A DNA stretch of 44,824 nucleotides from Gammaproteobacteria bacterium Ga0074134 (GTDB lineage Bacteria; Pseudomonadota; Gammaproteobacteria; Ga0077554; Ga007554), in the NCBI GenBank assembly GCA_001464965.1, contig LNEJ01000066.1, forward strand, positions 1 to 44,824, in the 5' to 3' direction. Numbering within the stretch: the stretch's first letter is position 1; every line of letters begins with the position of its first letter. The notes beneath the pieces were generated by a model. It searched no databases. It saw nothing but the letters and a program-made list of their open reading frames with translations, and was not told where the DNA came from. Position numbers and translations under genes: made by a program. Positions 11,972-43,228 of the stretch are shown here, one piece after another.

Positions 11972-12052
11972 GTTAGTGCGTCTCCGGGATTAATGTATGT
12001 GGTTTTGAGAGCCCGGTTATTGTTGTGCGGCTCTCTTACGTAGAGGGTTATA

Positions 12053-12084
12053 TATTATATAAAGGTTTATTTTCGCACATTCAA
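12053..12084 (-). promoter_or_regulatory. Candidate promoter of trxA
   Basis: On the minus strand TTGAAT precedes the AT block TATATAATATATAA, giving TTGAAT-N17-TATATA or TTGAAT-N19-TATAAT. It sits about 80-110 bases upstream of the trxA start. Confidence 0.5.
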
Positions 12085-14675: not shown

Positions 14676-14912
14676 TTATGCAGCCTTGCGTCCAGGCGAG
14701 CAAGAGGCCGTGGCGGGCACGCCCAGTTTCGTCAGGATTGTATCCATCAGGCACCAATTGGTGATGCCGCTCTGGAACAAATTCGCCCCGACAAACGCCG
14801 TGAACCACAGCCAATTCACGTTGTGAAACAGCGGGCTGGCTTCAACACCCAGGGCCAAGGATAACAGGATAAAAAAACCGGCGATGATACGGACAATACG
14901 ATTGATGGTCAT
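14676..14912 (-). CDS. Small DUF2892 (YgaP-type) inner-membrane protein
   Basis: This 78-aa protein has two hydrophobic segments (IVRIIAGFFILLSLALGV and WLWFTAFVGANLFQSGITN) with the NRIVRIIAG start and GANLFQSGITNWC pattern of DUF2892, the membrane module also found in the rhodanese YgaP. There is no rhodanese domain on this copy. Two cysteines follow: one in TNWCLM and one near the C-terminus. An AAAGGA ribosome-binding site supports the ATG. It is convergent with mtnB. The function is unknown; the module sometimes accompanies sulfur-transfer proteins, but nothing nearby proves that. Confidence 0.8.
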   Translation of the reverse strand: MTINRIVRIIAGFFILLSLALGVEASPLFHNVNWLWFTAFVGANLFQSGITNWCLMDTILTKLGVPATASCSPGRKAA

Positions 14913-15126
14913 GGCGGCGTCCTTTAGTTTATTATGTAATTCTAATATACATGCCCACGTCGCCTATTTCAACCCTCAAAACGGTAGTTAGCTGGGGTGG
15001 TGTGCGATTTGCAGGGTGCGGTGTATTCACTCCCACAGGGCGGGAGGGCTGTGGAGAGGGTGGCCTGAAACGTAAAAATATGACAATTATGCCGAGAGCC
15101 GCTGAAGGTGTGTGGAGAATAAGGTT

Positions 15127-37820: not shown

Positions 37821-39137
37821 TTATCTGCACCACAGAGCCGGATTGATAGGTGCGCCGGCGCGCCGGATTTCAAAATACAGGCCGGGACTCATCTGTCCGC
37901 CGCTGTCGCCCACGCTGGCAATCACATCCCCGCCGTTCACCCAGTCGCCGGTGTTCTTGCGCAGATTCTGGTTCTGCCCATACAGGCTCATGTAACCATC
38001 GCCATGGTCAATGATCAAAAGCAGACCGAAACCGCGCATCCAGTCAGAAAACACCACCCGGCCTCTGGAAATGGCCCGTACCTCCTGGCCTTCCGCAGCG
38101 GCAATCAGCACACCCTGCCACTTTGACGTGCCCAGCTTTCGAGAAGTTCCATACTGGGCGGCAATAGGGCCATGTGCAGGCCAGGGGAGCTTGCCCCGCA
38201 GACTGGCGAAGACCGATTTATCATCAATAGCTTCAGGAGTATCAGGCAGTGGCGTGGGAGGTAGGCCCGGAGCGCTGGGCTTTTCAGTCTGGGGTGGCCT
38301 TTGCGGTTTGTCTGGCTGGGTGCGTTTTGCGGCATTTGCCCGCCGTTGCGCTTCCGCGCGCCGTTGTTCCGCTGCACGCTGTTGCGCCTCTTGCAGCCTT
38401 TTTAATAGCTGGTTTAATTGCTGCTCGTCTTCCAGTAGACGTTGCAACTGTTGTTCTTTGCTCTGTATGTCCGCGCCGAGCTTGCTGAGCACGCCGCTGC
38501 GCTGCTGGCGGTTTTGCTCCAGGCGTCTTTTCTCCTGTTCGGTCTTGGTTTGTGCTTGCGCCAGCTGCTCAGCTTTGGTCTGGATGGATTGCTCCAGGGC
38601 TTCCAATTCGTGGAGGCTGGCGGTGACATTTTCAATGTGCGTCACGCGTGCGCGGTTGAAATAGTCATAGTAAACAACGCTGCGCCCGATGGCGGCCGGG
38701 TCTTGCTGGTTCAGGAGGATTTTCAAAAGATCCTGGCGGCCCATGGCATAGCTGGCACGCACCTGCTGGGCGAGGGCTAGTCGCTGTGCCGCAAGATTTG
38801 CCTGTTGCTGTTGTTGGCGTAAGCGTAGCTGCTTGAGGTCGTTGGTATGCTGTTGCAGTTCCTGTTGCAATATTTTCAGGGAACGGCTGACCTTGCCGGC
38901 CTCCATTTCGGTGGCCCGCAACTGGGAGCGCAACGCCGCCTGCTCGCCGCGCGCCGAATCCAGCGTGGAGCGCAGGCTTTGGATCTCGCCGCGCAGTTTT
39001 TTGAGTTCGGTGGTCTTGGCCTTTGGGTTGGCGTTGCTGTGTTTTTTGGCGGGTTCGGCAGGTGAATTTGCCGCCACCGCGTGCCCGCCGCCCACTCCCG
39101 CAGCGAGCAGCAATGCCAGCGTCATACGGATTTTCAA
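37821..39137 (-). CDS. envC: EnvC-like murein hydrolase activator
   Basis: EnvC is a periplasmic coiled-coil protein that switches on the amidases AmiA and AmiB at the septum. It has 438 aa (E. coli 419). A signal peptide ([22 protein letters not shown]) precedes long coiled coils (about 35-280, many Q, L, E and R) and a C-terminal LytM/M23 domain. The zinc-site histidines of active LytM enzymes are missing: SPGLYFEIR stands where HxH is usual, and SKWQGVLI replaces the HxGxD motif. This fits a non-catalytic activator. The TTG start overlaps the gpmI stop (TTGA) and gives the signal peptide its positive N-region; ATG at 39125 is the alternative. The Shine-Dalgarno is weak, in line with coupling. 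Confidence 0.9.
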
Positions 39138-40684
39138 ATCAATTTCATCAACGTCGTGCCACTCATCTCGGTGGGTTTGTTGATGCCCATCAGATATAGC
39201 ATGGTGGGCGCCACGTCCGCCAGGATGCCGCGGGAGGCCGCCACCGCCGGGCGCTGGCTGACAAATACGAAGGGCACCGGGTTGCTGGTGTGTGCGGTGT
39301 GCGCCTGGCCTGTGCTCTTGTCGCACATCTGCTCCGCATTGCCGTGGTCGGCGGTAATCAGCATCTCACCACCCGCCTTCTTCATGGCGTCGTATACCCG
39401 CCCCAGGCAGGCGTCTATGGTCTCGACGGCCTTGATGGCGGCGTCCATGCGGCCACTGTGTCCCACCATGTCCGGGTTGGCGTAGTTGCAGATCACCACA
39501 TCATATTTTCCGCTTTCAATGGCTTCGACCAGCTTGTCCGTGACCTGCGATGCGTTCATTTCCGGTTGCAGATCGTAGGTTGCCACCTGAGGCGAGGGGA
39601 TGAGAACACGGTCTTCACCGGGAAACGATTTTTCCTCCCCGCCGTTAAAGAAAAATGTGACATGGGCGTACTTTTCGGTTTCCGCAATACGCAGTTGATG
39701 CAGGCCGAGCCGGGAAATATAGGCGCCGAACACGTTTTCCAGCCGTTCGGCAGGGAAGGCCACCGGAATGGCGAAGTCCTTTTTGTATTCGGTGAGGCTG
39801 ACCACCGCGCCCAGGCGCGGCGTGGCGTTGCGTTCGAAGCCGTTGAAATCCGGTTCGATAAAGGCTTGCATGAGCTGGCGCACCCGGTCGGCGCGGTAGT
39901 TCATGAAGATTACGCTGTCGCCATCTTCAATGGAAACAGGTTTTTCTCCGGCGGGGACAATGGCGGTTGCCTGCACAAACTCATCAGTTTCGCCACGCGC
40001 ATAGGCCATTTCCAGCGCGCTGGCGGCATCGGATGCTTGGTAGGAGGCTTTGCCTTGGGTGATAAGTGCGTAGGCGGTTTGGACGCGAGGCCAGCGTTTG
40101 TCGCGGTCCATCGCGTAATAGCGCCCGATCACGGACCCAAAACGGCCACGTCCAAGCTGGGTGAATACGCCTTCCATGGCGGCGATGGAGGCGGCAGCGC
40201 TTTTCGGCGGGGTATCGCGCCCGTCGAGAAAGGCATGCAAGAAAACGCGTTGCGCGCCGCGTTCCACGGCGAGTTTGACCATGGCATAAATATGTTCTTC
40301 ATGGCTGTGAACGCCGCCAGGAGAGAGCAGGCCAAGGATGTGCACGGCCTTATTGGCGGCAACCGCTTCATCAACTGCGCGGGTCAGGGTCTGATTGGTG
40401 AAGAACGTGCCGCTTTTTATGGCGCGGTCGATGCGGGTCAGTTCCTGATAGACCACTCTTCCGGCGCCGAGGTTGAGATGGCCCACCTCAGAATTGCCCA
40501 TCTGTTCGGCGGGCAGGCCGACCGCTGTGCCCGAGCCATGAATCAGGGTATGGGGGTAAGAATTCCATAGGTGGTCCCACACTGGCGTGTGCGCGCCGAG
40601 AATGGCGTTGCCTTCGGTTTTTTCGCTGTAACCCCAGCCATCAAGGATAATCAGGGCCAATGGACGGTTTTTGATGGATGGCAT
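39134..40684 (-). CDS. gpmI: 2,3-bisphosphoglycerate-independent phosphoglycerate mutase
   Basis: GpmI interconverts 3- and 2-phosphoglycerate using two manganese ions and a phosphoserine. It has 516 aa (E. coli 514). The metal site begins [11 protein letters not shown] (D15); the catalytic serine is S65 in [16 protein letters not shown]. Further family blocks are [55 protein letters not shown] and [11 protein letters not shown]. The start [12 protein letters not shown] matches the family; an ATG 8 codons upstream is possible. It heads the gpmI-envC-ctpA operon and supplies the step after Pgk encoded about 10 kb away. Confidence 0.96.
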
Positions 40685-40728: not shown

Positions 40729-40759
40729 TTGCTTATTCAACGGACTATCATTGTATAAT
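40729..40759 (+). promoter_or_regulatory. Candidate promoter of the arsR-rhodanese genes
   Basis: A perfect TATAAT (40754-40759) lies about 20 bases before the regulator start, with TTGCTT 19 bases upstream. Spacing is longer than ideal. An ArsR-type repressor would be expected to bind across such a site. Confidence 0.5.
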
Positions 40760-40778
40760 GTTTCGCTTGTAAAGGCAC

Positions 40779-41165
40779 ATGTTGGAGCCTGGTTCTAAGG
40801 GGCTGGGTTTGCACATCTTGGCGGGTGCTATGGGCAACGAAAATGACGGGCAGCTTATCCTTCATGAAGAGGATATCGAACAAGCATCGCGTTCACTTAA
40901 GGCGATCTCCCACCCCTTACGCCTGAAAATACTTTGTACCCTGGGCGACCGGGAAATCAGCGTTCAGGATCTGGTGGAAGCAGTAGGCACCTCCCAGAGC
41001 AATATCTCCCAGCACCTGGCCATTATGCGCGACAAGGGAATACTCGTGTCACGCAAGGATGCCAACCGGGTTTTTTACCGGGTTGGGGATGTCCGCACAC
41101 TGCGCCTGGTAAGCATGATGCGCGAAGTATTTTGCGACCATCAGCCTAAAAAGAAGCGCTATTGA
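40779..41165 (+). CDS. ArsR-family regulator with a BigR/SqrR-like cysteine pair
   Basis: A small winged-helix regulator of 128 aa: SLKAISHPLRLKILCTLGDREISVQDLV (helices 2-3), the recognition helix TSQSNISQHLAIMRDKGI and the wing ILVSRKDANRVFYRVGD. It has two cysteines, C53 in ILCTLGD and C119 in REVFCDH, 66 residues apart. In the persulfide sensors BigR (C42/C108) and SqrR (C41/C107) the two sensing cysteines are also 66 apart and sit in the same two helices. No metal site of the classical ArsR CxC type is present. It lies 45 bases upstream of a rhodanese gene. Start uncertain: ATG 40779 has AAAGG close by; ATG 40830 is the alternative. The persulfide-sensing role is inferred. Confidence 0.85.
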   Translation: MLEPGSKGLGLHILAGAMGNENDGQLILHEEDIEQASRSLKAISHPLRLKILCTLGDREISVQDLVEAVGTSQSNISQHLAIMRDKGILVSRKDANRVFYRVGDVRTLRLVSMMREVFCDHQPKKKRY

Positions 41166-41210
41166 TTTTGCATAGCGGCTTTATCTTCTAAATTATTTTT
41201 TGCAGGCCTC

Positions 41211-41636
41211 ATGGAAAAGCTCGGTAGTTTTATTCTTGATCACTGGATATTGTCGTTTTCCCTGGTGTTTGTCTTGGTGCTGTTGGTGAGCGAGACGTTA
41301 AAACGCAGGATGCTGGGATTCAAGGAGGTGAGTCCCTCCGATGCGATTCGCCACATCAACAAGGATGACGCTGTTGTGCTGGATGTGCGCGAAGACAAAG
41401 AGTACGCGGAAGGCCACATTTCCAATGCGCTGCATATCCCCGTGGGTGTTATCGATAAACGCTTGCAAGAGCTGGAGCCCTATAAGTCCAAACCCATCGT
41501 CGTCTATTGCCGCAGTGGCGACCGTGCGGCGCGCGCCAGCGCCGTCCTGCGCAAACAGGGGTTTGAATCGGTTTACAAGCTCAATGGCGGGATATTGGCG
41601 TGGAAAGCAGCCAATCTTCCCCTTAGTAAAAAATAG
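41211..41636 (+). CDS. yibN: Membrane-anchored single-domain rhodanese (YibN-like)
   Basis: Rhodaneses carry sulfane sulfur on a cysteine. This 141-aa protein has an N-terminal membrane span (HWILSFSLVFVLVLLV, 11-26), then one rhodanese domain (about 38-135): DAVVLDVREDKEYAEGHISNA, the active loop with C100 in VVYCRSGDRAARA, and LNGGILAW. It matches E. coli YibN in length, in anchor and in position just upstream of secB-gpsA. E. coli has grxC between yibN and secB; here it is absent. It follows the ArsR gene by 45 bases and is probably co-transcribed with it. Confidence 0.92.
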   Translation: MEKLGSFILDHWILSFSLVFVLVLLVSETLKRRMLGFKEVSPSDAIRHINKDDAVVLDVREDKEYAEGHISNALHIPVGVIDKRLQELEPYKSKPIVVYCRSGDRAARASAVLRKQGFESVYKLNGGILAWKAANLPLSKK

Positions 41637-41693: not shown

Positions 41694-42173
41694 ATGTCGG
41701 ACAACTCTGAAAACCAGCAGCAGCCTGCCCAGGGGCGTTTCATCATCCAGAAGATCTATGTCAAGGATCTGTCCTTTGAAACACCCAACTCTCCCCACAT
41801 CTTCATGGAGAAATGGGAGCCCGAGGTGGGCTTGCAGATTGCCAACAATGGTGTTGTGCTGGGCGAGCACGTGCATGAAGTGGTGTTGTCCCTGACAGTG
41901 ACCGCCAAGCTGGGCGACAAGGTGGCCTATCTTGCCGAGGTGCAGCAGGCGGGTATCTTCAACGCCGAGGGTTTCAGCGATCACGACCTGGCAGGGATTG
42001 TCGGCAGCTACTGCCCGAACATACTGTTTCCCTTCGCGCGCGAGGTTGTTTCGGACCTTGTGACTAAAGGCGGCTTTCCCCAGTTGCTGTTGGCGCCCGT
42101 CAATTTTGACGCCCTCTACGCGCAACATTTACAGCAGCAGGGGCAAGCCGGGCAGCCGCAGGTTGCACATTAG
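41694..42173 (+). CDS. secB: Protein-export chaperone SecB
   Basis: SecB is a tetrameric cytoplasmic chaperone that holds preproteins unfolded and hands them to SecA. It has 159 aa (E. coli 155). Core family strands are visible: IQKIYVKDLSFETPNSPHIF, LSLTVTAKLGDKVAYLAEVQ, QAGIFNAEGF and the PNILFPFAREVVSDLVTKGGFPQLLLAPVNF block cut short here for length. An AAGGAAA ribosome-binding site precedes ATG. It sits between the rhodanese gene and gpsA. Confidence 0.97.
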   Translation: MSDNSENQQQPAQGRFIIQKIYVKDLSFETPNSPHIFMEKWEPEVGLQIANNGVVLGEHVHEVVLSLTVTAKLGDKVAYLAEVQQAGIFNAEGFSDHDLAGIVGSYCPNILFPFAREVVSDLVTKGGFPQLLLAPVNFDALYAQHLQQQGQAGQPQVAH

Positions 42174-42214: not shown

Positions 42215-43228
42215 ATGAATGCCGAAACCAAAGCCTCCCCCATTGTTGTGCTGGGCGCCGGTTCGTGGGGTACGGCGCTGGCCATTCTGCTTGCACGCAA
42301 TGGCCAGCCTGTCTGGATGTGGGGGCGTGACGCGCGGCACGTGGCGGAGCTGTCCGCCGCCCGCCGCAATGCACGCTTTCTGCCGGATGTTCCTTTCCCG
42401 GATTCCTTGAGTCTCACCAGCGATTTGCCGCAGGTTCTCGCGGTGGCGCGGGATATTTTAATAGCCGTGCCGAGCGCAGGGTTTCGCGCCACCCTGGGGT
42501 TGGTTGCCCCTCATGTTGGATCGGATACGCGCCTGGTCTGGGCCACTAAAGGGTTGGAGCCGGGCACCGGCCGGCTGTTGCACGAGATAGTAGCCGAAGT
42601 GCTGGGCGGCGCCATTCCAACGGCAGTGATTTCCGGCCCTACCTTTGCCCATGAGGTTGCGAAGGGACTCCCTACGGCGGTTACGGTGGCCTCCACATCT
42701 GAGGGTTTTGCCGCGCATCTGGCGGCAAGGCTGCACAGCAGCACCTTCCGCGCCTATACCTCTGCTGACGTGACTGGTGTCGAAGTAGGCGGTGCGGTGA
42801 AGAATGTGCTGGCGATTGCGGCGGGCATTGCCGACGGCTTGGGTTTCGGCGCCAATACACGCGCGGCGCTCATCACTCGTGGCCTGGCCGAGATGATGCG
42901 TATGGGCGGCGCGCTGGGAGCCCAGCGCGAGACATTGATGGGGCTGGCCGGATTGGGTGATCTCGTGCTGACCTGTACCGACAATCAGTCGCGTAACCGC
43001 CGGCTGGGCCTTGCCTTGGCGCAGGGGCAGACGCTGAACGATGCGTTGGCCGTCATCGGGCAGGCGGTCGAGGGGGTGCAGTCCGCGCGTGAAGTGTTGC
43101 ACGTCGCCCAGGCGCTGAATATCGAGATGCCCATTACCGAGCAGGTTTATCAGGTGCTGCATGCTGGGCGCAAGCCGCGCGATGCGGTGACCGCGCTGCT
43201 CAACCGTGATCAGAAGGCGGAGCTATGA
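42215..43228 (+). CDS. gpsA: Glycerol-3-phosphate dehydrogenase [NAD(P)+]
   Basis: GpsA makes glycerol-3-phosphate for phospholipids from dihydroxyacetone phosphate. It has 337 aa (E. coli 339). The Rossmann motif is VLGAGSWGTALA (GxGxxG); next come DILIAVPSAGFRATL, VWATKGLEPGTGRLL, VISGPTFAHEVAKGLPTA, the catalytic lysine in VGGAVKNVLAIAAGI and GLAGLGDLVLTCTD. The ATG follows secB by 41 bases without a strong Shine-Dalgarno. Order secB-gpsA is conserved. About 155 bases without a gene follow it. Confidence 0.97.
   Translation: MNAETKASPIVVLGAGSWGTALAILLARNGQPVWMWGRDARHVAELSAARRNARFLPDVPFPDSLSLTSDLPQVLAVARDILIAVPSAGFRATLGLVAPHVGSDTRLVWATKGLEPGTGRLLHEIVAEVLGGAIPTAVISGPTFAHEVAKGLPTAVTVASTSEGFAAHLAARLHSSTFRAYTSADVTGVEVGGAVKNVLAIAAGIADGLGFGANTRAALITRGLAEMMRMGGALGAQRETLMGLAGLGDLVLTCTDNQSRNRRLGLALAQGQTLNDALAVIGQAVEGVQSAREVLHVAQALNIEMPITEQVYQVLHAGRKPRDAVTALLNRDQKAEL

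Follow-up and report, generated by a model that had tools for sequence, protein, structure and literature searches.

A putative sulfane-sulfur-responsive ArsR repressor at the secB locus of many proteobacteria, and its candidate palindromic operator

In this work, we focus on an ArsR-family regulator encoded next to a rhodanese gene, secB and gpsA on contig LNEJ01000066.1 of Gammaproteobacteria bacterium Ga0074134 (assembly GCA_001464965.1). The whole stretch of 44,824 nucleotides that was analysed is called the window, and the features that we will refer to are the following:

14676..14912, minus strand: YgaP-like transmembrane protein of 78 aa, whose start is 17 bp from TATTATGTAATTCTAATA; predicted regulon member
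14930..14947, no strand assigned: another predicted operator, TATTATGTAATTCTAATA, which departs from TATTAG-N6-CTAATA at one base
39134..40684, minus strand: gpmI (Pfam iPGM_N and Metalloenzyme)
40740..40769, plus strand: predicted promoter/operator element ACGGACTATCATTGTATAATGTTTCGCTTG, conserved and AT-rich, overlapping a -10 box TATAAT at 40754-40759
40830..41165, plus strand: ArsR-family regulator, 111 aa from its likely start (Pfam HTH_5 and NCBIfam ArsR/SmtB, above cut-off)
41211..41636, plus strand: membrane-anchored rhodanese at the YibN position (Pfam Rhodanese, 7.4e-24)
41694..42173, plus strand: secB (Pfam SecB, 1.2e-55)
42215..43228, plus strand: gpsA (Pfam NAD_Gly3P_dh)

The order ArsR-rhodanese-secB-gpsA that the first-pass annotation had described is indeed present on the plus strand, and gpmI is divergent from the ArsR gene, a place that it also occupies in many relatives. 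As had also been noticed, grxC is absent from the 57-bp gap between the rhodanese gene and secB, the same gap that holds grxC in E. coli. The E. coli yibN-grxC-secB-gpsA genes form the same cluster, divergent from gpmM, and differ from the window by having no ArsR.

The longer open reading frame of the regulator spans 40779-41165 on the plus strand. A 1-base indel puts its ATG at 40779 out of frame in two close relatives, whereas the ATG at 40830 (MGN...) is kept, so that translation probably starts at ATG 40830 and yields a protein of 111 aa. Counted from there, the protein has only two cysteines, C36 (40935-40937) and C102 (41133-41135). The spacing of 66 residues that had been read between them stands, while their numbering as C53 and C119 probably has to give way to this one. 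In the AF2 (AlphaFold) model (pLDDT 87), C36 lies within helix 29-38 and C102 directly past helix 88-101, which puts the former in helix 2 and the latter at the end of helix 5. The alignment to BigR (3pqj), SqrR (6o8l) and HlyU is gapless, and the pair is thus in register with that of known sensors, as expected at first reading; in E. coli YgaV, the paired cysteines are one residue further apart than in the window ArsR.

A pattern search of species genomes matched 583 stretches, of which 503 encode a relative of the regulator, and the best 80 of these 503 were kept. Nearly all long loci show the order ArsR-rhodanese-(grxC)-(thioredoxin 2-like)-secB-gpsA, and many relatives carry grxC, often together with the thioredoxin-2-like gene (trx2), between the rhodanese gene and secB. 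The orthologues share at least 68% identity, with a clear gap to the next matches, at 52% and below (56 relatives). Loss of the cysteines among orthologues had been named beforehand as what would refute sulfur sensing; the first cysteine is conserved in 144/144 nonredundant orthologues and the second in 143/144. This set adds genome-search matches to the related loci, and it replaces a count on related loci only, which was biased because one of the search peptides contained C102. Among the syntenic orthologues, a single one is missing the second cysteine (L167, genome G308, 1492-1785); it ends in ..LLKTFSS, belongs to a genome without any exact copy of the palindrome described below, and is a natural test case for the loss of sensing. 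A divergent ArsR branch of about 50% identity (L159-L161 and L164-L166, families f53 and f97) is found beside ctpA; both cysteines are present there, and no rhodanese was found nearby. In the Gallionellales locus L082 (4995-8122), the ArsR gene is followed by DUF302, HlyD and SQR genes in place of the rhodanese gene and secB.

The rhodanese of the window keeps its catalytic cysteine, C100, in YCRSGDRA, as had been stated. This cysteine is present in 131/131 ArsR-linked copies against 24/30 copies from ArsR-less genomes (p 2.7e-5), and the CR[ST]G loop in 100/131 against 3/30. Judged from these sequences, its retention is consistent with a sulfurtransferase whose function is linked to the regulator. 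YibN of E. coli, which sits in the ArsR-less version of the cluster, is without the canonical catalytic cysteine (VVDGSGMQCQ); a displaced cysteine and a link to YidC have been reported for it (PMC12282094). The rhodaneses at the YibN position that have no canonical cysteine (L168, which is E. coli K-12, L212, L214, L215, L223, L226 and L228) all come from ArsR-less genomes.

We surveyed 370 genomes of the class with a completeness of at least 90%, calling the ArsR at E<=1e-24. An orthologue is found in 188/370 of them, soxB in 161/370 and dsrA in 124/370. The ArsR gene occurs in 119/124 dsrA genomes (odds ratio 61) and in 143/161 soxB genomes (odds ratio 29), both statistics ignoring shared ancestry, so that it co-occurs with soxB and with dsrA far above chance. 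The ArsR gene at the secB locus is a feature of many proteobacteria, above all of sulfur oxidisers. Thiothrix lacustris (L075) and Sulfuriferula multivorans (L089) are examples of cultured carriers. Neither soxB nor dsrA occurs in the window's own genome; it encodes an SQR with 63% identity to a Gallionellales SQR, which in turn matches solved sulfide-quinone reductase structures at 3.6e-165.

Footprinting of 136 ArsR upstream regions revealed an AT-rich element over the -10 box, at 21.8 bits against 9.2 for shuffled sequences. With the corresponding PWM, 40740..40769 is the top match of the window (29.3 bits, the next one reaching 14.7). The whole 30-bp PWM shows a weak palindrome symmetry. 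TATTAG-N6-CTAATA occurs within one mismatch at 11/136 of these promoters, where shuffles predict 0.45, and a reversed control pattern at 0 of the 136. This palindrome, which is new as a candidate operator linked to this ArsR, satisfies the consensus (A/T)TTAG-N9-A(T/A) of NolR, an ArsR relative (PMC12445080). Another pattern taken from the ArsR promoter, ATTATTGTATAATGTTTT, was rejected: it matched mainly ArsR promoters, and its other sites were at control level, so that the regulon appeared only with the palindrome. A match of 14.7 bits to the AT-rich PWM lies at 12044-12073 of the window, some 70 bp upstream of a gene for a DEAD-box helicase, and it misfits the palindrome.

Exact copies of TATTAG-N6-CTAATA number 259 against 38 of the reversed control in the 188 ArsR genomes, shared ancestry being ignored, and 59 against 36 in the 182 ArsR-less ones; in a sign test by genome, the palindrome outdoes the control 117:6 with the ArsR and 33:22 without it. 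The palindrome is thus over-represented only in genomes with this ArsR. Among sampled sites, 50/56 are intergenic in ArsR genomes versus 1/8 in ArsR-less ones. Among the genes that directly follow an exact site in ArsR genomes are those of sulphur globule protein (2), rhodanese (3), molybdopterin oxidoreductase (2), TolC (3), HlyD (2) and FadL (3), as well as ccoN and ccoG. Exact palindromes are also found before an inorganic pyrophosphatase gene and an acetolactate synthase-like gene (L238, L268, L242, L243), for which a sulfur role is not obvious, and before other genes that have no connection to sulfur. In the window's family, SQR promoters carry the palindrome, exact or with one change (G000, which is the window's own genome, G001, G002, G003 and G005), and in Gallionellales L082 the same palindrome, as TATTAGTATATTCTAATA, stands between the ArsR gene and DUF302-HlyD-SQR.

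When one mismatch is allowed, three sites are found in the genome that the window belongs to: one before sqr, at G000:C47:27558-27575, one before an HlyD gene and one before the YgaP-like gene. This is no excess over the two of the reversed control, and the case therefore rests on the position of these sites and on their counterparts in related species: all three, before sqr, the HlyD/RND genes and the YgaP-like gene, have counterparts in close relatives, and in the relative L307 an RND gene comes next after the HlyD gene. The YgaP-like assignment comes from the G003 orthologue of the 14676-14912 protein (Pfam YgaP-like_TM, 3.3e-13); a gene resembling it separates the ArsR and rhodanese genes in some relatives, L047 being one.

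These sites could be read in another way, with the ArsR as a local autoregulator and the palindromes as the sites of another sulfur regulator that co-occurs in the same genomes. The strict palindrome is indeed poorly matched at the ArsR promoter of the window, where 4/12 bases differ, and palindrome sites are also found in some ArsR-less genomes, one of which (L253, G275, at 1501) has an exact copy 52 bp before an SQR-like gene, so that another regulator may share the palindrome. We nevertheless hold this reading to be unlikely, considering that the palindrome is commoner than expected at the ArsR promoters themselves, that G000 has no second match to the ArsR protein at E<=1e-3, and that a PWM built solely from ArsR promoters picks up TATTATGTAATTCTAATA, the site of the YgaP-like gene (14.3 bits, third in the window, with 0.03 expected per shuffle).

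The known sensors of reactive sulfur species (RSS) form one ArsR cluster (SSN cluster 4), with cysteines in alpha2 and alpha5; in these proteins, sulfur forms a bridge between the two cysteines and the DNA is released, without any response to H2O2 (PMC10509353). The window ArsR has the winged-helix fold (Pfam HTH_5 and the AF2 model) and its cysteines in these same helices, and since the known RSS sensors work by bridging their cysteines and leaving DNA (PMC10509353), the same mechanism is the most likely one here. A general thiol-redox switch, answering to H2O2 or disulfide like RexT and controlling a rhodanese-grxC-trx2-secB operon for redox balance, would agree with the grxC and thioredoxin-2-like genes that the operon carries in many relatives, RexT itself controlling a thioredoxin (PMC8960804). 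It is quite improbable in our judgement: the adjacent Cys40/Cys41 of the RexT type in alpha3 is absent from the window ArsR, HlyU with its alpha2/alpha5 pair reacts with persulfides and not with H2O2 or glutathione disulfide (PMC10509353), and the predicted palindrome sites precede sulfur genes. A metal or arsenic sensor, which the NCBIfam name 'metalloregulator ArsR/SmtB family' would imply (NF033788, score above cut-off), is very improbable: CzrA and SmtB structures do rank level with the RSS sensors, in a fold comparison that fails to separate the two groups, but inspection of the window sequence and of the A1 consensus reveals neither a Cys-x-Cys in alpha3 nor a His in alpha5, HlyU, YgaV, BigR and SqrR outrank every metal sensor by sequence, and the gene neighbours are sulfur-related. 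The metal-sensor and RexT readings were set aside because these ligands and cysteines are missing.

Coming back to RSS sensing, the model gives Z scores of 14-15 to HlyU, YgaV, BigR and SqrR. In YgaV-YgaP of E. coli, an ArsR with paired cysteines (38% identity to that of the window by structural alignment) likewise stands beside a membrane rhodanese, and the targets predicted here also include a YgaP-like membrane protein. The two systems differ in that the rhodanese and the YgaP-like protein are separate genes in the window, where the ArsR belongs to a yibN-secB-gpsA cluster; the window rhodanese carries a hydrophobic segment of its own at the N-terminus and is not fused to a YgaP-like membrane domain as in a YgaVP-type pair. 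The predicted TATTAG-N6-CTAATA also differs from ATTC-N8-GAAT, which has been reported as the motif of SqrR/YgaV (PMC9774250). SqrR of Rhodobacter capsulatus and SoxR/sHdrR of Hyphomicrobium have the same alpha2/alpha5 cysteine pair and repress sulfide or sulfur oxidation genes, a predicted likeness to the window ArsR; their neighbouring genes include rhodaneses and RND pumps (PMC12423496). In a tree, the orthologues separate from BigR, SqrR, YgaV and HlyU with a support of 98/97, although the branches of the references are long and the bootstrap is unsettled, and the housekeeping cluster further sets the window ArsR apart from SqrR. The cysteine pair of BigR (Xylella, Acinetobacter) aligns without gaps, with 6.9e-18 to 3pqj; membership in BigR was rejected because the score of 77.8 bits is below the equivalog cut-off of 155 (NF040642), and the operon differs. 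NolR (Sinorhizobium), whose consensus fits the predicted operator, controls nodulation genes. By analogy, the regulator most likely works like BigR/SqrR/YgaV, without being a BigR by the curated cut-off.

The sulfane-sulfur sensing that the first-pass annotation had proposed agrees with the fold and the cysteine position, with the distribution across genomes, with the active site of the rhodanese and with the predicted operator; its other proposal, the control of a sulfurtransferase and perhaps of secB and gpsA, proves too narrow, as likely targets lie elsewhere, including sqr, the HlyD/RND efflux gene and the YgaP-like protein. As far as sequence allows one to judge, the best reading is that of a widespread, undescribed sulfane-sulfur-responsive repressor of the BigR/SqrR/YgaV kind, which very probably, by analogy with them, turns genes on as reactive sulfur accumulates, and whose control probably extends past its neighbours to sulfur genes in scattered places. 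We find it likely that this protein is a winged-helix repressor from the RSS-sensing branch of the ArsR proteins and acts as a homodimer. In its reduced form, it would bind the AT-rich palindrome, either strictly as TATTAG-N6-CTAATA or in a looser version, both at the promoter of its own gene and before scattered sulfur genes. Upon a rise in persulfide, sulfur atoms would bridge C36 and C102, and the bridged dimer would leave DNA and allow the target genes to be expressed. Both the binding of the palindrome by this ArsR and the persulfide chemistry at C36/C102 are inferred. In the window's organism, the predicted regulon would comprise ArsR-rhodanese(-secB-gpsA), sulfide:quinone oxidoreductase, HlyD/RND efflux and the YgaP-like membrane protein. 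The ArsR may control secB and gpsA as well; the AT-rich stretch of 57 bp that precedes secB could, however, carry a promoter of its own.

The sensing of sulfur compounds by sulfur oxidisers is described in the literature as little known (PMC10451225). No regulator of this description for gammaproteobacterial sulfur oxidisers was found in our literature search, nor any description of an ArsR with secB and gpsA, as had been claimed at first, the neighbourhood tables of PMC12423496 and PMC10509353 being outside that search. A broader proposal, for which the chances appear evenly balanced, makes this ArsR the main repressor of sulfur metabolism in these bacteria, acting via TATTAG-N6-CTAATA on sqr, sulfur-globule, sulfurtransferase, molybdopterin oxidoreductase, efflux and cbb3 oxidase genes as predicted targets, and ties protein export (YibN, SecB) to reactive sulfur. 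The candidate regulator also suggests a reason for the clustering of yibN, grxC and secB, which may form a thiol and protein-export unit that is sulfur-controlled in bacteria meeting sulfide, in contrast to E. coli, which has neither the ArsR at its secB locus nor the canonical YibN cysteine. With one candidate gene that nearly all the dsrA genomes sampled possess, a DNA site predicted for its product and a set of proposed targets, the question of sulfur sensing thus becomes testable.
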